Assembly: GCA_031406795.1 (NCBI GenBank)
Contig: JANOHV010000137.1
Span: forward strand, 1 to 11,997
Length of the DNA: 11,997 nucleotides
Reading direction: 5' to 3'
Source of the DNA: DATDCY01 sp031406795 [NCBI: Candidatus Rokuibacteriota bacterium]
GTDB taxonomy: Bacteria; JAUVQV01
A program made the translations under genes and the position numbers. How positions within the stretch are numbered: the first letter of the stretch is position 1; the number at the start of each line of letters is the position of its first letter. The notes under the pieces are model-generated. The model worked only from the letters and a program-made list of their open reading frames with translations. It was not told where the DNA came from and searched no databases. Of this stretch, positions 1-8,809 are shown piece by piece.

Positions 1-695
1 GCAGCGGCAGCTACGACGCAATCCTCGGGAACCTCCGGGACGTCCACGATCTGGTCGACCTGAAGATCGGCGGGAACTACCAGCGGGAGAACTTCCGGGA
101 GTTCCCCCGCCTGCTCGACGATCTCGCCGCCAAAGGCCTGACACCGGCGGTCGTCTCTCACGTCAAGTTCGACCCGGTGGTCAGGGAGCGGGAGGGTATC
201 GCGCCGCCGGATTTCCACGGCGGCTGCACCACGCTGAACGAACCATGGCTCTACGAGGCCAGCGTCTTTCTCCGGGAGGAGGTCCTGCGCCGGGGATACC
301 GCACATCGAGGATCATGCCGGCGATCTGCATGATCGATTTTCCCGGGCAGATGGTGATCGATCACGATGGCGCCATCTACAAGTGCTCCGGGCTGATCGG
401 TCGGAGGCAATTCCAGGTCGGCGATCTCGAACTGGGTCTGACGGACGTTCGCCGTACCCACAACCTCGACGCCTGGAAGAACGAATCGTGCCTCTGCTGC
501 CCGTACCTACCGCTCTGCTTCGGCGGCTGCCGCTATCTGAAACTGTTGCGCGACGGCGAGATGGCCGGGGTGGATTGCCGCAAACCGTACTTCGACGCCG
601 TGCTCGAGAAGCTCGTGCTCCAGGACCTGCGCATTGGCTGCGCTCCGGATGCCGGGAGTCCGCGGGGTTGGTCCGAACCTTCGCATGCGGGATGA
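1..695 (+). CDS. Radical SAM/SPASM domain protein, C-terminal part (5' end outside window)
   Basis: The frame is open from base 3 to a TGA at 693-695, so the gene begins upstream and its radical SAM CX3CX2C core is not visible. The remaining ~230 residues include the end of a radical SAM barrel and a complete SPASM domain. Its cysteines fit the seven-Cys signature: C-x13-G-x4-C, a gap, then C-x2-C-x5-C-x3-C (an extra Cys sits inside the first CX2C), a gap, and a last Cys. SPASM domains bind auxiliary [4Fe-4S] clusters in enzymes that modify ribosomally made peptides or protein side chains, so a peptide or protein maturase is the likely role. The substrate cannot be told; no precursor peptide or RiPP partner lies directly downstream. 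The last ~20 residues are a low-complexity tail. A strong hairpin begins 52 bp after the stop. A GTG at 177 is not a credible start because the homology-like reading continues upstream of it. Confidence 0.88.
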   Translation, partial: SGSYDAILGNLRDVHDLVDLKIGGNYQRENFREFPRLLDDLAAKGLTPAVVSHVKFDPVVREREGIAPPDFHGGCTTLNEPWLYEASVFLREEVLRRGYRTSRIMPAICMIDFPGQMVIDHDGAIYKCSGLIGRRQFQVGDLELGLTDVRRTHNLDAWKNESCLCCPYLPLCFGGCRYLKLLRDGEMAGVDCRKPYFDAVLEKLVLQDLRIGCAPDAGSPRGWSEPSHAG

Positions 696-851: not shown

Positions 852-1817
852 ATGATCGGCGTGCTGGAAAGCAAAGTGCAGCCGGGAATCGGCTTCCCGC
901 CGAGGCGCTTTTTCGCGTTCGCCTTTGCCGTGCTGATTTCATTCCCGCTCCCCGCCCCCCCGCGCGCCACGGCCGCCGTCGGCTATGTCGTCGTCGTCTG
1001 CGATCGCGAGATCGCGCCGTATCGCGCGCTGCTGGAGAGCTTCACGAAGGCCTGTGACTGCACGGTGCGTGTCATCCCGCCGCAGGAGGCCGCGCAGGAG
1101 GGGCTCGAGCGGCGGCTCAAGGCCGCGGGTGCGCGCGCAGTCGTGGGCGTCGGTCTGCAGGCGCGCGCGGCGGTCGAGGAGCTGCGCGATCTGCCGGTCC
1201 TGCTCACCATGGTCCCGCAGGTGCAACCCTGGGTCTTGGCGGCGGCCAACCGCTCGGGCATCGAGATGTCGCTCTCGCCGCGGCAGCACCTGGAAACGCT
1301 GCGGCAGGTCTTCCCGCGGGCGAAGCGGATCGGCCTGATCTTCGACCCCGCGCAGACCGGCGGCTATGTTCGCGAGGCGCAGGCGGCGGCGCGCGCGCTG
1401 AACCTGTCGCTGGTCGCCCTCGAGATCGCGCGGCCCGGGGAGCTGCTCCGCCGATTCGAAGAGTTGCGCGGCCAGATCGACGTCTTCTGGGTGCTCCCCG
1501 ACCCGACGGTGCTCCAGCCGGAGAACCTCAAGGCCCTGTTGCTCGCCTCCTTCGAGTCGCGGATTCCGCTCTATGCCTTCGCGAGGAAGTACGTGGAGCT
1601 GGGTGCGATCGCGGCCGCGCATCTCGATCCCGCGGCGCTCGGCGCCCAGGCCGCAGGGTTGCTCCCGCGCGTTCTCTCCCCGCCCGGCGGCGCCGACGCG
1701 CCCCGCTGGGAGTACGCCAGCGGCGCGCAGCTCGTGCTCAACCAGAAAGTCGCCCGCAAGATGGGCATCGTCCTCGACCCCGACGTGCTTGAGGCCGCCA
1801 CCGATGTACTCCGATAA
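852..1817 (+). CDS. Periplasmic ABC-type substrate-binding protein (ABC_sub_bind / COG2984 type), putative ligand sensor
   Basis: The 321-residue product starts with an N-terminal signal sequence: an RR pair at ~18-19, a hydrophobic run to ~35, and an ATAA-type cleavage site near 40. It is therefore expected in the periplasm. The rest reads as a two-lobed binding protein of the COG2984/TrpX-like type. Familiar elements are an opening strand followed by an APYRALLESF helix, KRIGLIFDP at the second-lobe start, and an LDPAALGAQAA segment near the C-terminus. No permease or ATPase gene is nearby. The stop overlaps the histidine kinase start by 14 bp, so the two are translationally coupled and the protein probably presents a ligand to the kinase rather than to a transporter, in the manner of TorT/TorS. 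The ligand is unknown. The start at 852 has only a poor purine-rich stretch (AGAAAGA) upstream; a GTG at 861 is the alternative and would keep the signal peptide. Confidence 0.85.
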   Translation: MIGVLESKVQPGIGFPPRRFFAFAFAVLISFPLPAPPRATAAVGYVVVVCDREIAPYRALLESFTKACDCTVRVIPPQEAAQEGLERRLKAAGARAVVGVGLQARAAVEELRDLPVLLTMVPQVQPWVLAAANRSGIEMSLSPRQHLETLRQVFPRAKRIGLIFDPAQTGGYVREAQAAARALNLSLVALEIARPGELLRRFEELRGQIDVFWVLPDPTVLQPENLKALLLASFESRIPLYAFARKYVELGAIAAAHLDPAALGAQAAGLLPRVLSPPGGADAPRWEYASGAQLVLNQKVARKMGIVLDPDVLEAATDVLR

Positions 1818-3366
1818 GCCCACGCGCCGCATCAGCTTCCGGGTCTTCAGAGTCCTGGCGATCTCGCTGTTGGGGGTTTCCGCGATTTTCACCACGTACT
1901 TCGTGCAGTTCCAGAAGCAGCGCCTGGAGGCCGCCCTCGTCGAGCGAAGCAAGGGGCTCGCCGGGCTCCTGGCCACCGGCGCAAAGATCGCGGTCTACTC
2001 GGAAAACGCCGAACTGGTGCAGGAAACGCTTCAGGGTGTAGTCGATCGCCGGGACGTCCTCGCCGCGGCGGTCTTCACTTTCGACGATGTCCCGATCGCG
2101 ACGGCCGGTCGGACTCCGGCGTTGAAAGCCGATGCCGCCCGGCTCATCTCCCGGGACCTCGAGGCCGTGCGCCGCATCCGGACTCAGAGCGGGTGCACGA
2201 GCCACCAGGACGCCGAAATCGTGGACGCGTTCTGCCCGGTCATGATTCGAAAGACTTCGACGTCGGGCGGCGACCTGTATTACGAGTACCCGACGGAGGA
2301 AACCGTCGAAACGCATGTCGGCTTCGTGAGAGTCTCGCTCGACCGCAAGCCGATGCGCCGCGAACTCAAATCGCTCGTGCTGCGCAGCCTGGCCTTGATG
2401 CTCGTCATCCTGCTCCCCGGCACCTGGGCGGGGTACCTCTTCGCGCGGCGCGTGACCGAACCGCTCGAACGGCTCACCGAGGCGGTGCGCACCTTCGGCG
2501 CCGGTCGCGAGATCGGCGAGCTGTCCCGGATGCCGGACAACGAGGTCGGCAGGCTGGCCGAGGCGTTCACCAGCATGACCCGCGAGATCACCGAACGCGA
2601 ACTTGAGAAGGAGCGTCTCGCGGAACGGCTGCGCGAGGCCCAGAAGATGGAGGCCGTGGGCACGCTCAGCCAGGGGATTTCCCACGATTTCAAGAACATC
2701 CTCTCTACGCTCAAGGCGGCCGTGCACATTCTGCAGAAGGGTTCGCCGGACAATGAGTTCGTGCTGAAATACACCGGAAAGATCCAGGTGTCGCTCGATC
2801 GCGCCCGGGACCTGGTGGAGCGGTTGGTCACCTTCAGTCGCACGCGCCAGCGCCCGTCGCGGTGCGTCGACCTGAGCGCGCTGCTCGCCCGGCTGGCGCC
2901 GATGCTCCGTGAGGCGGTCGGTGAAAGCGTGCGCCTGAGCCTGGAGCCGTCCCCCGAGCCGGTGCAGGTCCTCGGGGATGCGGCAAGTCTGGAGCAGTTG
3001 TTGATCAACCTGGCGTACAACGCGCGCGATGCGATGCCGGAGGGCGGCATCCTCTGCATCCGCCTCGACAGCCTCGCGGCGGACTCGGCCGACGAGCGTG
3101 GCACCGCGCGCATCACGGTCGGCGACACGGGCGTCGGCATGGACCCCGAGGTGCGCCGGCGGCTGTTCGAGCCGTTCTTCACGACGAAGGACGTTGGCGC
3201 CGGCATGGGCCTCGGTCTCTCGATCGTTCATGGTATTGTCGAGCAGCACCACGGGCGGATCGAGGTCGAATCCGAGCCCGGGCAGGGCGCCACTTTCCGG
3301 GTGGAGCTGCCGCTGGCGGAACCGTGGGGCGCGGAGACGCCGGCGCGGCCCTGTCCCGGGGACTGA
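1804..3366 (+). CDS. Membrane sensor histidine kinase (periplasmic CHASE8-like region, HAMP, HisKA, HATPase_c)
   Basis: Starting at the ATG at 1804 gives 520 residues. The open frame runs further upstream but only as an antiphase reading of the preceding gene, and a GAGG lies ~10 bp before this ATG. TM1 is about 15-34, a periplasmic segment 35-188 resembles CHASE8 sensor domains, TM2 is about 190-212, HAMP 213-265, and a short coiled linker follows. HisKA carries the phospho-acceptor His294 in GISHDFKNIL. HATPase_c has an N box (N402/N406, NLAYNARDAM), G1 (D441, DTGVGM), F box (FEPFFTTK, 456-462) and G2 (GAGMGLGLS, 465-473), so it looks fully active. The H-box style matches NtrB-like kinases that partner with NtrC-type regulators, and such a regulator follows 24 bp downstream. 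The overlap with the binding-protein gene suggests that protein contacts the periplasmic domain. The cognate signal is unknown. Confidence 0.92.
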   Translation: MYSDKPTRRISFRVFRVLAISLLGVSAIFTTYFVQFQKQRLEAALVERSKGLAGLLATGAKIAVYSENAELVQETLQGVVDRRDVLAAAVFTFDDVPIATAGRTPALKADAARLISRDLEAVRRIRTQSGCTSHQDAEIVDAFCPVMIRKTSTSGGDLYYEYPTEETVETHVGFVRVSLDRKPMRRELKSLVLRSLALMLVILLPGTWAGYLFARRVTEPLERLTEAVRTFGAGREIGELSRMPDNEVGRLAEAFTSMTREITERELEKERLAERLREAQKMEAVGTLSQGISHDFKNILSTLKAAVHILQKGSPDNEFVLKYTGKIQVSLDRARDLVERLVTFSRTRQRPSRCVDLSALLARLAPMLREAVGESVRLSLEPSPEPVQVLGDAASLEQLLINLAYNARDAMPEGGILCIRLDSLAADSADERGTARITVGDTGVGMDPEVRRRLFEPFFTTKDVGAGMGLGLSIVHGIVEQHHGRIEVESEPGQGATFRVELPLAEPWGAETPARPCPGD

Positions 3367-3390: not shown

Positions 3391-4740
3391 ATGATGAAAC
3401 GGGTGCTGGTCGTCGACGACGAGGCCGACTTCCGGTCGCTGATGTGCGAGGCCCTCCAGATGGAAGGGTACGCGACCAGCGAGGCGGCGGATGGCCTGGA
3501 GGCGACCGCGGTCTTCCGCGCCGTCGCTCCGGACGCGGTGCTGCTCGACCTGCAGATGCCGCGCCGGGGCGGGCTGGCGGTGCTGCGGGAAATCCGGGGC
3601 ATCGCGCCGGACGTGCCGGTGATCGTCCTGTCGGGGCAGGGAGACATCGCCGCGGCCGTCGAGGCGGTGAAGGGCGGCGCGTTCGACTACCTCCAGAAGC
3701 CGCCGGACTTCGAACGGGTCGCGCTCACGCTGCGGCAGGCGCTGGAGAAGCAGCACCTCGAGGGGGAGGTGCGGCGCATCAGCGCGGCGCTCGATACCTC
3801 ACTGGAGAACAAGTTCGGCGCGAGCCCCGCCATCCGCGGCGTGATCGAGCGCATGAAGCAGGTGGCCCCGACGGATCTGGCCGTCATCGTGCAGGGGGAG
3901 ACCGGGACCGGCAAGACCTACGTGGCGCACGCCATCCACGAATTGAGCCGCCGGGCCGGCATGGCTTTCGTCCGCGTCGACGTCAGCGTGATCCCTCCAA
4001 GTCTCGCGGAGAGCGAACTCTTCGGAGCGCGCAAGGGCGCCTACACCGGATCCGACAAGGACCGCGTCGGCTACGTCGCCGGCGCGAACGGCGGGACGCT
4101 TTTTCTCGACGACATCGAGAACATCCCGTTGGAGATCCAGGCGAAGCTGCTCGACGTGCTGGAGACCAAGCGCATCTGTCCGGTCGGCGGCGGCGAGCCG
4201 ACCGCGCTGGACTTTCGCGTGATCGCGGCCACGAACCGCGATCTGCGCCGCTGCGTCGCCGCGAAAACGTTCCGCGAGGATCTGCTCTACCGCCTCGGCG
4301 AGTTCGTCATCGACATCCCGCCGCTGCGCGAACGGCCCGAGGACATTCTCTTCTTCATGGACGTGTTCCTCCTCGACGCGTGCACGGAGATGGGACGCCA
4401 GGTTCGGGGTTTCAGCGCGGACGCCGCCGAAGTGCTGCTGCGCCACCCCTGGCCGGGGAATGTCCGGGAGCTCAAGAATGTGGTGCGGCGGGCGACGCTG
4501 CTGGCGCCTGGCGACCTGGTTGAGACCGCACAGGTGAATTTCATCGCGCGAGAGGACGAAGACCTCCCGGGAGACTGTCTGGCGCATTCGCTGAAAGAGG
4601 CGGTGCACAGCTTCGAGAAGCAGCTTCTCCGCCAGGCTCTGGACAAGACCGGCCGCAACAAGAAACGGGTGGCGGAGCTGCTCAGGATGAGCTACCCGAA
4701 CCTGTTGAGCAAGATCAGGGAGTACGGACTCGAGGAGTAG
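3391..4740 (+). CDS. NtrC-family sigma-54-dependent response regulator (REC, AAA+, Fis-type HTH)
   Basis: The 449-residue protein has all three modules. The receiver (1-120) has D9/D10, phospho-acceptor D53 and K103 of the QKP turn. The sigma-54 activator AAA+ domain (about 142-385) has Walker A GETGTGKT (169-176), loop 1 GAYTGS (216-221), Walker B ending LDD (239-241), sensor I ATNRD (280-284) and the FREDLLYRL arginine region (294-302). The Fis-type helix-turn-helix (about 405-447) ends KIREYGL. Two positions are unusual: loop 1 is GAYTGS rather than GAFTGA, and the Walker B pair is DD rather than DE. The family binds enhancer-like sites 80-150 bp upstream of -24/-12 promoters and remodels sigma-54 RNA polymerase. 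Exactly such a site pair and promoter begin 13 bp after the stop codon. The kinase upstream is the evident phospho-donor. Confidence 0.95.
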   Translation: MMKRVLVVDDEADFRSLMCEALQMEGYATSEAADGLEATAVFRAVAPDAVLLDLQMPRRGGLAVLREIRGIAPDVPVIVLSGQGDIAAAVEAVKGGAFDYLQKPPDFERVALTLRQALEKQHLEGEVRRISAALDTSLENKFGASPAIRGVIERMKQVAPTDLAVIVQGETGTGKTYVAHAIHELSRRAGMAFVRVDVSVIPPSLAESELFGARKGAYTGSDKDRVGYVAGANGGTLFLDDIENIPLEIQAKLLDVLETKRICPVGGGEPTALDFRVIAATNRDLRRCVAAKTFREDLLYRLGEFVIDIPPLRERPEDILFFMDVFLLDACTEMGRQVRGFSADAAEVLLRHPWPGNVRELKNVVRRATLLAPGDLVETAQVNFIAREDEDLPGDCLAHSLKEAVHSFEKQLLRQALDKTGRNKKRVAELLRMSYPNLLSKIREYGLEE

Positions 4741-4753
4741 CGTCGTCACCGAC

Positions 4754-4770
4754 TATTAAAACTTTTAATA
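4754..4770. promoter_or_regulatory. Palindrome copy 1, likely enhancer site for the enhancer-binding protein
   Basis: TATTAAAACTTTTAATA is a perfect 8-bp inverted repeat around one C, almost pure A+T inside a very GC-rich genome. Its centre (4762) is about 129 bp upstream of the predicted sigma-54 transcription start. It is one of two identical copies. Confidence 0.7.
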
Positions 4771-4773
4771 CTC

Positions 4774-4790
4774 TATTAAAACTTTTAATA
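4774..4790. promoter_or_regulatory. Palindrome copy 2, likely enhancer site for the enhancer-binding protein
   Basis: This is the same 17-bp palindrome as at 4754-4770, with centres exactly 20 bp (about two helical turns) apart, so both face the same side of the DNA. Outer GAC (4751-4753) and GTC (4791-4793) make the whole 43-bp block nearly palindromic. It could alternatively form a cruciform or a weak transcript-end hairpin for the upstream regulator gene, but it lacks GC stems and a U-tract. Confidence 0.7.
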
Positions 4791-4836
4791 GTCGCTCCCC
4801 CTTCCCGCGATCCAGGCTGAGCAGAATAGTGCCTGA

Positions 4837-4849
4837 TATCAATTGGTTG
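4837..4849 (+). promoter_or_regulatory. IHF binding site, exact consensus match
   Basis: TATCAATTGGTTG fits WATCAANNNNTTR at every specified position. It lies between the tandem palindromes and the -24/-12 promoter, where IHF normally bends DNA to bring an enhancer-bound activator onto sigma-54 holoenzyme. It overlaps the left arm of an 8-bp inverted repeat (CAATTGGT 4840-4847 with ACCAATTG 4859-4866). Confidence 0.65.
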
Positions 4850-4866
4850 AGATTTTGCACCAATTG
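4840..4866. repeat. Inverted repeat CAATTGGT / ACCAATTG next to the -24 element
   Basis: The perfect 8-bp arms are separated by 11 bp. The left arm lies within the IHF match and the right arm runs into the -24 box. It could be a repressor or anti-activator operator occluding the promoter, or a by-product of the two sites sharing CAATTGG. Confidence 0.35.
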
Positions 4867-4880
4867 GCACCGCTCTTGCT
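4865..4880 (+). promoter_or_regulatory. Sigma-54 (-24/-12) promoter
   Basis: TGGCACCGCTCTTGCT matches TGGCAC-N5-TTGCW exactly, with 10 bp between the invariant GG (4866-4867) and GC (4878-4879). Transcription should start near 4891, leaving a ~33-nt leader before the receiver gene at 4924. Together with the upstream palindromes and IHF site this is a complete sigma-54 control region. Confidence 0.85.
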
Positions 4881-4913
4881 TGCTCCTTTGACAGCCGTTT
4901 CAACAGCCGACCC

Positions 4914-4919
4914 AGGAGG
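4914..4919 (+). promoter_or_regulatory. Ribosome binding site (AGGAGG) of the receiver protein
   Basis: A full AGGAGG ends 4 bp before ATG 4924 and just before GTG 4921. It fixes the start downstream of the sigma-54 promoter and rules out the TTG at 4843, which lies inside the promoter region. Confidence 0.75.
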
Positions 4920-4923
4920 GGTG

Positions 4924-5418
4924 ATGCGCATCGAAGTGACTGTCGGGTTGAGCCTGGAACCGTGCTCCGGTTCCGGAGGGGGACGAGCCGAGGAATCCGC
5001 GCACCTCGCGGCCCGCGGCCGCGGACCGCGGCGGGGAAGGATCCTCATCATGGACGACGACCGCATGGTCCGCGAGACCATGTACCGGCAGCTCGCGATC
5101 TGCGGCTACGAGGTCGTGGCCGCGGTGCAGGGCGAGGACGCCGTGCACGCCTACCAGCAGGCGCGCGAGGCGGGGCGGCCGTTCGATGCGGTCATCCTGG
5201 ACCTGCAGGTTGAAACCGGCTGGGGCGGCGAGCAGACGCTGGGCGAGCTGCTGAGGCTGGACCCCGGGGTGAAGGCGCTGGTCTGCAGCGGCTCCCTGGA
5301 AGGACCGAAGTCGGGCTATGAGCAAAAGGGGTTCCGCGGCGTCATCGGCAAACCCTATTCGCTGGCGGAGTTGCGCGCGCAGGTCGAGGCGGTGCTGTTC
5401 GCGCCCGCCGATGTCTGA
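4924..5418 (+). CDS. Stand-alone receiver-domain response regulator
   Basis: The 164-residue protein consists of a ~37-residue N-terminal extension and one receiver domain (about 38-160). Receiver residues are the acidic cluster D44-D46, phospho-acceptor D93 in VILDLQV, S122 at the usual Thr/Ser switch position and K143 in GKPYS. There is no output domain. The sequence style (GRPFDAVILDL, GYEQKGFRGVIGKPY) resembles receivers that normally sit at the C-terminus of hybrid histidine kinases. It is the first gene behind the sigma-54 promoter, so it should be induced by the NtrC-type regulator upstream and may act as a phosphate sink, shuttle or protein-interaction switch. The N-terminal extension is rich in Gly, Arg and Ser, looks disordered and has no recognised motif. 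An internal start would cut into the first receiver strand. Confidence 0.85.
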   Translation: MRIEVTVGLSLEPCSGSGGGRAEESAHLAARGRGPRRGRILIMDDDRMVRETMYRQLAICGYEVVAAVQGEDAVHAYQQAREAGRPFDAVILDLQVETGWGGEQTLGELLRLDPGVKALVCSGSLEGPKSGYEQKGFRGVIGKPYSLAELRAQVEAVLFAPADV

Positions 5419-5459
5419 TCGCCGCCGCCGCTGCGAGAATGCGCGTGAGCACGCCGCAG

Positions 5460-5471
5460 GGTGACGTCACC
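5460..5471. promoter_or_regulatory. 12-bp perfect palindrome GGTGACGTCACC
   Basis: A perfect dyad with a TGACGTCA core lies in the 80-bp gap between the receiver gene and the preferred start of the next one. It could be an operator for a dimeric regulator or chance in GC-rich DNA. It falls inside the next reading frame only if that gene starts at 5439. Confidence 0.2.
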
Positions 5472-5498
5472 GGCGACCGAAGGGTGCGGGAGCGCGGC

Positions 5499-5771
5499 AT
5501 GCGCCTTGAATCCATGGACCGGGTCTTCGAGGATTACATTTCCACGGTCACCGGGGAGCTGCGCGCCCCCCTGCGGTCGCTGCTGACGCTGGCCCGGCAG
5601 ATCGGGGAATACGACGGAGTGATGGACGCCGGCGCCAGGGAATATGCCGACTATATCCGCGCGAGCGCGGAGCACATGTCAGTCATGCTCAATGACCTGA
5701 AGCGTCCAGCGGCTCCCCGGGCAACCGTCGGCGAAAGCCGGCGCTCCTGGCAATCCGTGGAGACTCGCTGA
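5499..5771 (+). CDS. Orphan DHp (HisKA-like) small protein lacking the phospho-acceptor histidine
   Basis: Starting at the ATG at 5499, preceded by GGGAG at 6-bp spacing, the product is 90 residues; an in-frame ATG at 5439 would add 20. Residues ~10-68 read as the two-helix dimerisation domain of a histidine kinase. A helix-1 segment TGELRAPLRSLL corresponds to SHELRxPLxxI, and the helix-2 segment EYADYIRASAEHMSVMLNDL corresponds to the usual ERMxxLIxDLL stretch. The catalytic His is replaced by Gly19 and there is no ATPase domain, so it cannot be a kinase. It may be a decoy or adaptor that docks onto receivers, or the relic of a receiver-HisKA-HATPase protein broken up with the receiver gene 80 bp upstream. 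It is expected to be in the sigma-54 operon; 25 bp separate it from the next gene. The domain call rests on pattern recognition only. Confidence 0.6.
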   Translation: MRLESMDRVFEDYISTVTGELRAPLRSLLTLARQIGEYDGVMDAGAREYADYIRASAEHMSVMLNDLKRPAAPRATVGESRRSWQSVETR

Positions 5772-5796: not shown

Positions 5797-6042
5797 ATGA
5801 GCGCCATGGAATTGCAGGTCAGCCATGAGTCGCGATGGGCGACAACGAAGTGCCCGAGTGGGTTTTCCTGTCTCGCGGCGGAGCCGACGGATCTTTGCTC
5901 CGTGGAAACTTTCGTCGACGGGACAGTCCAGTTCATCAAATGCCTGCACAATGGCTGCTGCACTTATCAGCACCCGTTCGGCAAGGGTGATGTGTGCATG
6001 TGCCCGGTGAGAAAAGAGATTTTCAGCACGTACAAGTTCTGA
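5797..6042 (+). CDS. Small eight-cysteine protein of unknown function
   Basis: The product is 81 residues from ATG 5797, or 78 from ATG 5806; the second start has GGGGG about 9 bp upstream and is at least as likely. Eight cysteines lie in residues 19-69 with pattern C-x5-C-x8-C-x14-C-x4-CC-x11-C-x-C, followed by a basic PVR-x-EIF tail. No signal peptide or membrane segment is seen, so it is probably cytoplasmic and may bind metal or an Fe-S cluster, or be a modified peptide. From memory it resembles small uncharacterised Cys-rich proteins of deltaproteobacteria ending in CxCPxR; this was not checked. It lies 25 bp after the HisKA-like gene and is likely co-transcribed from the sigma-54 promoter. 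A link to the SPASM enzyme at the left end is possible but the genes are 5 kb apart. Confidence 0.7.
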   Translation: MSAMELQVSHESRWATTKCPSGFSCLAAEPTDLCSVETFVDGTVQFIKCLHNGCCTYQHPFGKGDVCMCPVRKEIFSTYKF

Positions 6043-6170: not shown

Positions 6171-7238
6171 ATGGATACGCGATCGCACCTGAGAGCCATC
6201 CCGCTTTTTCAGTCGCTGACCGAGACCCAACTCGACGACATCTCGCGCAAGATGACCTTCGCCGATTTGCCGGCCGGAACGGTCGTGATGAGCGAGGGCG
6301 GCGAGCGCATGGGCTTTTTTCTGCTGCTCTCCGGCAGCGTCAGGGTCATGAAGAATTACGGCCGGCGGTCGCAGAAGGAACTCAGCCGGCTCGAGGCCGG
6401 TTCGTACTTCGGCGAGATGAGCCTTCTGGACGAGTGCCCTCCTTCCGCCACGGTCGTCGTGTCCGAGGCGGCACAGGGGCTCGTGCTGACTCCCGAAGGT
6501 TTCAATGCCGTCATCAGCGCCCATCCCGGGGTGACCCACCTGCTCCTCTCGACGTTGAGTCGGCGGCTGCGGGTTCTGGAGGACTCCGGCATGCGGGAAC
6601 TCATCGCGGCGCAGGAAGCGGTCATCCTCAGCCTGGCCAAACTCGCGGAATGCCGCGACCCCGAGACGGGGGCGCATCTGGACCGGATCAGCCACTATTG
6701 CCGTCTGCTGGCGCGCGCCGCGGCCGGGAGTCCGGCATTCCGGGAGGAGATCGACGCGGATTTCGTCGACATCATCGCCATGTCGAGCCCCCTGCACGAT
6801 ATCGGGAAGGTCGGCGTGCCGGACGCCGTGCTCCTCGCGCCCCGGCGGCTCACCGCGGAAGAGACTCTCATCATGCGCCGCCACCCGGAGATCGGCGCCA
6901 CCGCGATCCGCCGGGCGATGGCCAAGAGCCCGGGCGTCGCCTTTCTCGCGATGGGGCACGACATCGCCCTGTTCCACCACGAGTGGGTGAACGGCAACGG
7001 CTACCCCCAGGGCCTCGCCGGAGACGCGATTCCGTTGAGCGCCCGGATCATGGCGGTGGCGGACGTCTTCGACGCCTTCCGCTCCGACCGGGTCTACCGC
7101 AAGGGACTCTCCCACGAGGAGACGAAACAGATCCTGATCGACGGGAGCGGCACGCAATTCGATGCCCGGCTGGTGGACCTCTTTCTGGGGCGGGAGGACG
7201 AGCTGCTGGAGCTGGTCGGGCTCTACCGCGAGGCGTAG
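6171..7238 (+). CDS. Cyclic-nucleotide-binding-like domain plus HD-GYP phosphodiesterase
   Basis: The start at ATG 6171 follows AGAGGGG (spacing ~5) and begins right at the domain; a longer reading from 6093 adds a low-complexity leader. The product is 355 residues. Residues ~1-130 form a cNMP-binding fold (LFQSLTETQLD opening, GSYFGEMSLLD in the phosphate-binding cassette). The Arg that normally contacts the cyclic phosphate is Pro91, so classical cAMP/cGMP binding is doubtful. Residues ~145-345 are an HD-GYP domain with TGAHLDR (166-172), catalytic H209-D210, K213, HHE (269-271) and GNGYP (275-279), all as in active c-di-GMP phosphodiesterases. No membrane segment is seen, so it is cytosolic. 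The context suggests it turns two-component or cyclic-ligand input into changes in c-di-GMP. Its stop overlaps the convergent MeaB-epimerase gene by 16 bp. Confidence 0.9.
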   Translation: MDTRSHLRAIPLFQSLTETQLDDISRKMTFADLPAGTVVMSEGGERMGFFLLLSGSVRVMKNYGRRSQKELSRLEAGSYFGEMSLLDECPPSATVVVSEAAQGLVLTPEGFNAVISAHPGVTHLLLSTLSRRLRVLEDSGMRELIAAQEAVILSLAKLAECRDPETGAHLDRISHYCRLLARAAAGSPAFREEIDADFVDIIAMSSPLHDIGKVGVPDAVLLAPRRLTAEETLIMRRHPEIGATAIRRAMAKSPGVAFLAMGHDIALFHHEWVNGNGYPQGLAGDAIPLSARIMAVADVFDAFRSDRVYRKGLSHEETKQILIDGSGTQFDARLVDLFLGREDELLELVGLYREA

Positions 7239-8713
7239 CTCCTGTCGTTCCTGCTCCTTTCTCGAGCTGTTTCCTCCAACTCCACCAGCGTGCCGCAGAA
7301 GTCCTTCGGGTGCAGGAAGAGCACCGGCGTGCCGTGGGCGCCCGTTTTCGGCTCGCCGTCGCCGAGGACCCGCGCACCCTGCCCGGCGAGGGCGGCCGCG
7401 GCCGCGCGGACGTCGGGCACCTCGAGGGAGAGGTGGTGGATGCCGCCGCCGGGGCTCTTCTCGAGGAAGGAGCGCAGCGGCGAGCGCTCGCCGAGCGGGG
7501 TCACCAGTTCGATCTTGGTGTTGGGCAGCGCGACGAAGACGACGATTACGCCGTGCTCGGGCAGCGACCGCGGCTCGGAGACGCTCGCGCCGGGGAGCCG
7601 GGCGAAGGCCCGACGAGCGCCCTCGAGATCAGGGACGGCGATCGCGACGTGGTTGAGGCGGCCGGCAGCCGCGGCCGGGAGCGGCGGTGCGGCAGTGTCC
7701 GCCGCCGTGGGCGATGCGTCGCCCGGACCGCCGGTTTCGCCGAGGAAGCCGGCGATCAGCCGGCGGGCGCCGATGGTGGGAGGCAGTGTTCCCTCACGGA
7801 CGGCGCTCTCGAGCTGCGCGAGGCGCTCGCGCACGCCGGGGTGCTCGCGAAGGCTCTCGAGCAGCGTCTCGGCGGTTTCGGCCCAGAGCCACTCGCCGGC
7901 CTGCGCCGCGCGGCGCGCCGCGAGTTCCCCGCTCGCGGTCAGCGTCTCGTGGTAGCGCAGCATCGCGTCCCAGGCCGCGGCGATCCCGGCGCCGGTGCGC
8001 GAGGAGCAGGCGGCCACCGGCACGTCCCACCCGGCGGCGCGCGGGCGCAGCAGCGTCAGCGCGTTGCGGTAGGCTTCGACGGCGCGCTCGGCCGCAGCCG
8101 CGAGGTCGCCGTCGGCCTTGTTGACGAGCACCAGGTCCGCCAGCTCGACGATGCCGCGCTTGATCCCCTGCAGCTCGTCGCCGCCGCCGGGGACCAGCAG
8201 CAGCAGGAACAGGTCGGTCATGCCGGCGACCGCCGTTTCGCTCTGACCGACGCCGACGGTTTCGACAAGCACGGTGTCGAACCCCGCCGCCTCGCAGACC
8301 AGCAGCGCCTCGCGAGTCCGCCGCGCGACGCCGCCGAGCGTGCCCCCGGAGGGGGTGGGGCGGATGAAGGCTTCGGGGCGGCGCGCCAACTCGGCCATGC
8401 GGGTCTTGTCGCCGAGGATCGAGCCGCCGCTCGCGGGCGAGGAGGGGTCGACGGAGAGCACGGCGACGCGGCGTCCTTTGGCGAGCAGGTGCAGGCCGAA
8501 GGCCTCGATGAACGTCGACTTGCCGGCGCCGGGGACCCCGGAGATGCCGATGCGGAAGGCGCCGCCGGCCGCCGGCGCGAGCAGCTCGATCAGCCGCGCG
8601 GCCTCGCCGCGGTGGTCGGCGCGGGTGGACTCGACGAGCGTGACGGCGCGGGCGAGCGCCCGCCGGTCTCCGGAGCGCACCGCCGCCGCGAGCTTGTCGA
8701 TCGTGGCCGTCAT
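7223..8713 (-). CDS. Fusion of MeaB/ArgK-type mutase chaperone GTPase and methylmalonyl-CoA epimerase
   Basis: The single 496-residue polypeptide carries two enzymes. Residues 1-~325 are a MeaB (LAO/AO ATPase, ArgK) G3E GTPase: Walker A GVPGAGKS (59-66), DPSSPASGGSILGDKTRM (89-106), switch ETVGVGQ (151-157) and NKAD (198-201), plus the C-terminal dimerisation arm. A Pro/Ala/Gly linker (~326-350) leads to a VOC-fold methylmalonyl-CoA epimerase (351-485), with putative metal ligands H355, E402, H426 or H427, and E478 in the LVELE end motif. MeaB loads and protects the B12-dependent methylmalonyl-CoA mutase; the epimerase makes its (R)-substrate. ATG 8713 begins at the normal MeaB N-terminus but has no clear Shine-Dalgarno; a TTG at 8785 would add 24 unrelated-looking residues. 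It lies 172 bp downstream of the carboxylase alpha subunit and forms one pathway with it. Confidence 0.93.
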   Translation of the reverse strand: MTATIDKLAAAVRSGDRRALARAVTLVESTRADHRGEAARLIELLAPAAGGAFRIGISGVPGAGKSTFIEAFGLHLLAKGRRVAVLSVDPSSPASGGSILGDKTRMAELARRPEAFIRPTPSGGTLGGVARRTREALLVCEAAGFDTVLVETVGVGQSETAVAGMTDLFLLLLVPGGGDELQGIKRGIVELADLVLVNKADGDLAAAAERAVEAYRNALTLLRPRAAGWDVPVAACSSRTGAGIAAAWDAMLRYHETLTASGELAARRAAQAGEWLWAETAETLLESLREHPGVRERLAQLESAVREGTLPPTIGARRLIAGFLGETGGPGDASPTAADTAAPPLPAAAAGRLNHVAIAVPDLEGARRAFARLPGASVSEPRSLPEHGVIVVFVALPNTKIELVTPLGERSPLRSFLEKSPGGGIHHLSLEVPDVRAAAAALAGQGARVLGDGEPKTGAHGTPVLFLHPKDFCGTLVELEETARERSRNDRSYASR

Positions 8714-8714
8714 T

Positions 8715-8728
8715 GTTTCGATTGAAAC
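8715..8728. repeat. Small palindrome GTTTCGATTGAAAC at the meaB-epimerase start
   Basis: Five-bp perfect arms around GATT end one base before the start codon (minus strand), where a ribosome binding site would be expected. It may affect translation initiation or be chance. It is a single copy and not a CRISPR repeat array. Confidence 0.2.
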
Positions 8729-8809
8729 TTGGTGATGGAGGTGCTGCAGGGAACGGAGATGCTGCTCAAAAGGGTCCAGGTGCAAGGCGCCCGACGATCC
8801 GGTGACTGA

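Follow-up and report, generated by a model that had tools for sequence, protein, structure and literature searches.

A Predicted Sigma-54 Control Region with Twin Operators Follows the Gene of an NtrC-Family Activator in a Candidatus Rokuibacteriota Genome

Results

Twin palindromes, an IHF consensus site, and a sigma-54 promoter lie directly 3' of an NtrC-family activator gene in a Candidatus Rokuibacteriota genome, and this anatomy is conserved with several orthologous activators. Judged from its sequence, the region very probably serves a locally acting two-component system as enhancer and promoter. Several relatives have the same arrangement with the same spacings, so that activator, site, and target can be paired with good confidence. 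We analyzed a stretch of 11,997 nucleotides (contig JANOHV010000137.1), here called the window, whose features are collected in Table 1.

The genes run in the order maturase, binding protein, histidine kinase, activator, control region, receiver gene, and HisKA-like gene. The maturase fragment (230 aa) falls short of the whole-protein TIGR04280 cut-off of 400 bits; the gene is truncated at the 5' edge of the window. The substrate-binding protein is the probable sensory partner of the histidine kinase, which also has a weak sCache match, under the cut-off for that family. Target gene 1 has a possible alternative GTG start at 4921. In the HisKA-like protein, what we take to be the usual phospho-accepting histidine is absent by eye (TGELRAPL), and the protein may be a dimerization or inhibitor module. 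Then comes a gene whose product has cNMP-binding and HD domains. Further on, the opposite strand carries biotin-dependent carboxylase genes and a fusion (7223-8785, minus strand) of a MeaB GTPase and a methylmalonyl-CoA epimerase in one frame, both parts above their NCBIfam cut-offs. A lower-GC stretch contains an 81-aa cysteine-rich open frame at 5797-6042 (FIKCLHNGCCTYQHPFGKGDVCMCPVRKEIFSTYKF), for which we found no Pfam match at E 1.

Table 1. Coordinates of the features of the window
Feature	Position	Strand	Evidence or remark
Geopeptide radical-SAM/SPASM maturase, C-terminal part	3..695	+	TIGR04280, 306.8 bits, profile 218-426 of 428
ABC-type substrate-binding protein	852..1817	+	Pfam PF04392, E 1.8e-24
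Histidine kinase (HAMP, HisKA, HATPase)	1804..3366	+	Pfam, searched as 1801-3366
NtrC-family sigma-54 activator (REC, AAA+, Fis-type HTH)	3391..4740	+	PF00072, PF00158, PF02954
Inverted repeat of both operators	4750..4794	.	Arms and hairpin z
Predicted operator 1, CTATTAAAACTTTTAATAC	4753..4771		Center 102 bp before promoter YTGG, about -129
Predicted operator 2, CTATTAAAACTTTTAATAG	4773..4791		Center 82 bp before YTGG, about -109
IHF consensus site, TATCAATTGGTTG	4837..4849	+	Starts 27 bp before YTGG
Sigma-54 promoter, TTGGCACCGCTCTTGCTTGC	4864..4883	+	Start site expected near 4891, from the -12 position
Shine-Dalgarno AGGAGG	4914..4919	+	Sequence
Predicted target gene 1: stand-alone receiver protein, extended N terminus	4924..5418	+	PF00072, E 2e-11
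Possible target gene 2: HisKA-like helical domain, no ATPase domain	5439..5771	+	PF00512, E 2.6e-4, below cut-off

Pfam places a receiver, a sigma-54 AAA+ domain (PF00158, 196.7 bits), and a Fis-type HTH in that order in the activator, bearing out the original prediction that the preceding gene encodes an NtrC-family enhancer-binding protein. The protein resembles AtoC and XrtA-PEP-CTERM-type response regulators over its whole length. Its scores against NF008469 (369 bits, cut-off 714) and TIGR02915 (371 bits, cut-off 502.6) lie far under the curated cut-offs, which places it outside both families. Among the matches listed in a plasmid collection, all had less than 60% identity to it. In an 82-row tree, it sits on a long branch (0.98) inside a clade of 17 with support of 100/99, and its nearest rows are L041 and L051. 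Its sigma-54 contact loop reads GAYTGS, the sole such row of the 82; the loop is GAFTGA in 67 and GAYTGA in one other, and 3 rows were not matched. Walker B is DD, not DE, as in several relatives. Since GAYTGS replaces GAFTGA, the action of this activator on sigma-54 is less certain, and a weaker contact is possible.

The palindrome TATTAAAACTTTTAATA is a 17-mer with perfect 8-nt arms around a central C and occurs twice, at 4754-4770 and 4774-4790, start to start 20 bp; 200 shuffles gave 0 matches, even with three mismatches allowed. Together, the copies form a 45-bp inverted repeat with 21-nt arms that are 95% complementary, starting about 10 bp 3' of the activator stop codon. The operator thus lies 3' of the activator gene, which gives no sign that this gene controls itself through it. 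The IHF consensus WATCAANNNNTTR has a single match in the window (0.03 expected), as does TGGCAC-N5-TTGCW (4865-4880; 0.00 expected). Sigma-54 promoters carry GG and GC 10 bp apart in the consensus YTGGCAC-N5-TTGCW. The promoter of the window meets 12 of 14 consensus positions, with GG at 4866-4867 and GC at 4878-4879. Palindromes, IHF consensus, and -24/-12 promoter all stand at the coordinates originally predicted, as does the 10-bp spacing, and shuffles give 0.00 to 0.03 matches. We found no Rfam match in the whole window and no match to the regulatory region in the plasmid collection.

A scan of genome contigs with the activator found three remote loci, by the receiver domain, one of them in Nitrospirae bacterium GWC2_56_14. 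In that phylum (presumably Nitrospirota), 12 of 148 genomes encode a geopeptide maturase over the cut-off. The full series of maturase, binding protein, kinase, and activator occurs in 2 of 14 stretches around such maturase genes, with activators 52% and 47% identical to that of the window. We then searched 395 genomes with an alignment of three activators, scoring the best 4 candidates per genome, and later all 176 genomes of the order, taking matches at E ≤ 1e-192 as orthologues. Orthologues occur in 19 of these 176 genomes, up to 54% identical to the activator of the window (47 to 53% in the three genomes of the operator model below). The four genes are in order at 12 of the 19 loci, where the binding protein adjoins the maturase. 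The others have binding protein, kinase, and activator (3), kinase and activator (1), or the activator alone (3) by tblastn, counts in which some contigs are too short to tell. The activator therefore belongs to a recurring set of geopeptide radical-SAM maturase, binding protein, histidine kinase, and activator.

We looked within 300 bp 3' of the activator gene for a promoter matching at least 11 of 14 consensus positions. Of the 30 nearest relatives, 22 have one, as do 18 of the 33 intermediate relatives, against 1 of 19 activators in the distant set (a twentieth sequence was too short and was left out). Orthologous activator genes in G132 and G126, and likewise in G254, are directly followed by twin palindromes and then a sigma-54 promoter. 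In these three genomes, the palindromes are of the CTAT-N11-ATAG type, stand 21 bp apart, and lie 9 to 17 bp past the activator stop codon, and each promoter meets 12 of 14 positions. Distances from the operator centers to YTGG are 103/82 bp in both G132 and G126 and 101/80 bp in G254, against 102/82 bp in the window. Sequences vary between relatives (e.g., CTATACAGAAAGTGTATAG and CTATACAAAGTTTGGATAG) with CTAT-N11-ATAG in common, and one G254 site ends in ATAA; the half-sites are conserved and the cores variable. The 17-bp palindromes of the original prediction are present, and this comparison suggests that the recognized unit is 19 bp, CTAT-N11-ATA[G/C], covering both predicted operators. 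Genomes G260 (103/81 bp) and G306 (103/83 bp) keep the distances with weaker sites. In G306, about 370 bp separate the pair from the stop codon, so it is the spacing to the promoter that is conserved.

We built a strand-symmetric operator model from G132, G126, and G254. In the 12-kb window, its two highest scores (15.8 and 11.3) fell on the two operators, and the next was 1.5. Counting the window, 17 loci had no part in the model, and 14 of them have a promoter. In 8 of the 14, the best site was phased, lying 79-84 or 100-105 bp from YTGG, against a simulated mean of 0.27 and a maximum of 3 in 500 runs; these distance ranges were chosen after the distances in relatives had been seen, and at least two locus pairs are close kin. 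Five of the 8 phased sites are weak (scores 2.3 to 7.0).

The clear twin arrangement occurs in only 5 of the 19 orthologues, 3 of which built the model, and the rest have single or weak sites, a different distance, or no site. L041 and L051 lack both an operator and a promoter 3' of the activator. The loci examined last (L048 and L150-L153) lack the conserved geometry, and L150 and L152 also lack a promoter. L153, whose promoter is weaker, shows another inverted repeat about 81 bp ahead of that promoter (by eye). Also by eye, L047 may have a decayed promoter about 200 bp past the activator stop codon: this promoter-like stretch reads GA for GG at -24 and stands close to the distance from one palindrome that would be expected. 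An automatic twin-palindrome score was weak: only some loci reached the level of 2 or fewer of 60 shuffles, a level that L115 and L128, which belong to the distant set, reached as well, so we rested nothing on that score alone. Conservation beside orthologous activators, proposed as a check in the original prediction, is thus seen in several genomes as variant palindromes in the same architecture and spacing; many orthologues, including the two nearest in the tree, are without it.

The layout recurs with sister activators of the same phylum (e.g., L053 and L057), whose genes are followed by twin palindromes spaced about 20 bp apart and by a sigma-54 promoter. Their operators are of the TTCTGGAA or CTATGGAA type, unlike those of the window, and their targets also differ, with a STAS-domain gene first in L053 and L057 (Pfam). 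Twin TGGAA/TTCCA-type palindromes before sigma-54 promoters were seen in L053, L054, L057, L061, and others. By eye, site form follows the clade: CTAT-N11-ATAG with core CAAA/TTTG stands beside a SYTNLL-type recognition helix, whereas the different twin palindrome CTATGGAA-N4-TTCCATAG stands beside a DYKTLL-type helix. Operators of this second type lie near 81/61 bp from the promoter in L057 and L061 (81.5/61.5 bp in L057), about two helical turns closer than those of the window.

Our survey of the IHF site covered the window and 63 relatives; 45 of these 64 loci had a usable promoter. In the 70 bp preceding the -24 element, 7 of the 45 have an exact match to the consensus (0.5 simulated), and 21 have a match when one mismatch is allowed (9.0 simulated). 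Such matches on the coding strand at 27-29 bp occur in nine loci: the window, six others of its clade, L056, and L086. Nine further loci, none from the clade of the window, have matches at 15-18 bp, about one turn away from the first cluster. Given this shift and the two-turn shift of the sister operators, the regulatory assembly seems to move by whole helical turns. The exact match in the window lies between the predicted enhancer and the promoter, and its 27-bp offset is kept in several relatives.

We searched related genomes for the operator pattern with at most one mismatch. In G132 (3.6 Mb), there were two matches, both at this locus, and both matches in G254 were also at the locus. In G126, the locus accounted for 2 of 2 matches in one scan and 2 of 3 in another. 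A reversed control pattern matched 0 times in G132, once in G126, and 6 times in G254. In several genomes, the control equals or exceeds the operator pattern (6 versus 2 in both G254 and G306), and the evidence is therefore the place of the matches, not their number. Single one-mismatch matches elsewhere were seen in G296, G346, G288, G386, G224, and G322, with one each in G306 and G126. The operator probably serves one promoter only. The original prediction held that a palindrome scattered as a generic repeat would speak against it; in three related genomes, the palindrome is nearly confined to the locus.

We considered whether the 45-bp repeat is instead an RNA hairpin at the end of the activator operon, marking where the transcript stops or is processed and having nothing to do with activator binding. 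Its 21-nt arms, a hairpin z of -5.9 against shuffles, its start just after the stop codon, and, by eye, sites that mirror each other in several relatives would suit such a role. However, no T run follows the repeat, a simple scan finds no terminator-like site, the G306 pair holds its distance to the promoter far from the stop codon, and conservation falls on the half-sites and not on the cores. We therefore rejected a plain terminator, and we regard a hairpin of this kind as improbable.

The palindromes could also be the site of another regulator, with a different activator of the genome driving the sigma-54 promoter. The pairing of activator and palindromes is drawn from sequence, and activators are many in related genomes (G001 has 14 matches at E ≤ 1e-100). 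Against this, site form goes with activator clade and recognition-helix type (by eye), and the pair remains behind the activator gene in five genomes and the window; we rejected this reading, too, and give it little credence. A chance or generic AT-rich repeat was also weighed, since AT-rich patches can be spacers in a window of 68% GC, and the single matches elsewhere in some related genomes come at about the rate of the reversed control. The lack of shuffle matches, the position and form kept in several relatives, and the near confinement of the palindrome to the locus in three genomes exclude this origin as far as sequence allows, leaving it extremely unlikely. Binding by the neighboring activator is the reading we retain.

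In relatives, the first genes behind the promoter include those for LuxR-type HTH proteins (Pfam GerE in L030, L066, L068, L071, L072, and L074, with L065 and L073 recognized by eye) and for receivers (L065, L070, and L075, Pfam). L025 has an 86-aa protein without a Pfam match. Target genes differ between genomes, and the receiver as first target in the window is in keeping with a second signaling tier. A protein of about 210-220 aa recurs behind the promoter in L066, L067, L070, and L071, beside LuxR-type, receiver, or kinase genes; the L066 copy has no Pfam or NCBIfam match. In L071, we also saw a LuxR protein with an autoinducer-binding domain.

On the maturase side, a TonB-receptor gene precedes the maturase in L030 (Pfam), with look-alikes at several other loci. 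In the window, an adjacent precursor gene would fall beyond the edge. In five related loci examined by eye, the stretch before the maturase encodes small, basic peptides whose C-terminal part contains a Cys-Cys motif (activator-forward coordinates: L030, 9094-9228; L066, 3961-4200; L072, 5740-5940; L065, 4778-4894; L069, 4976-5125). These are likely geopeptide precursors (by eye), and NCBIfam, applied to four of the five, named none as a precursor.

Discussion

We propose that the histidine kinase detects a signal together with the binding protein. This signal is probably connected with the neighboring geopeptide (radical-SAM RiPP) pathway, and the kinase would phosphorylate the activator. The activator would then bind both 19-bp palindromes, which are spaced by two helical turns, and assemble into an active oligomer, with the DNA bent by IHF at about -48. 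Its AAA+ domain would open the sigma-54 polymerase at the promoter, and transcription would cover a short operon, the receiver gene first and probably the HisKA-like gene, as a second signaling tier. The original prediction had likewise read the palindromes as the sites of the neighboring activator, IHF as bending the DNA between them and the promoter, and the downstream operon as the target. These readings are supported by the variant palindromes of several orthologues at the same helical distances from a -24/-12 promoter behind the activator gene, by the different twin palindrome of the sister activators, and by the near confinement of the palindrome to the locus in three related genomes.

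Activators that combine paired half-sites with a local promoter and a small regulon are already well described, for example in Desulfovibrio (PMC4641369). Local regulons have been reconstructed for Desulfovibrio vulgaris, which has 37 NtrC-family activators (PMC4641369). In that study, the motifs include three groups whose TGT/ACA half-sites are separated by 9, 11, or 12 bp, most activators control between one and four operons, and the sigma-54 promoter of DVU0569 lies downstream of its gene (PMC4641369). Comparative pairing of activators and sites is thus published practice (PMC4641369), and the original description of this locus as a rare case was too strong. The activator of the window resembles those of D. 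vulgaris in its predicted sites with short half-sites, neighboring -24/-12 promoter, and probably small regulon. It differs in its CTAT/ATAG half-site, in paired sites distance-locked to promoter and IHF site, and in its linkage to a geopeptide maturase. A literature search, mostly of titles and the beginnings of abstracts, found no description of the activator clade, the operator motif, or the gene context, and found nothing on the geopeptide radical-SAM peptide pathway.

Gene neighborhood is what links the system to geopeptide sensing. Tentatively, the binding protein, kinase, and activator might form a dedicated listening arm of the geopeptide RiPP pathway. The signal would be a Cys-Cys peptide carrying the radical-SAM modification, which the linked TonB receptor perhaps takes up as a metal complex, and the output would be a second signaling tier of receiver or LuxR-type proteins, reached through a single-promoter sigma-54 switch. 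If so, this arm would be a cascade that senses a peptide and can be read from sequence. For the activator clade, which is here tied to a radical-SAM peptide pathway, our analysis adds a predicted operator sequence, its geometry, and its target. The phase-locked spacing of two operators, IHF site, and -24 element across diverged sequences can be used as a template when the sites of other sigma-54 activators are to be assigned in uncultured bacteria.
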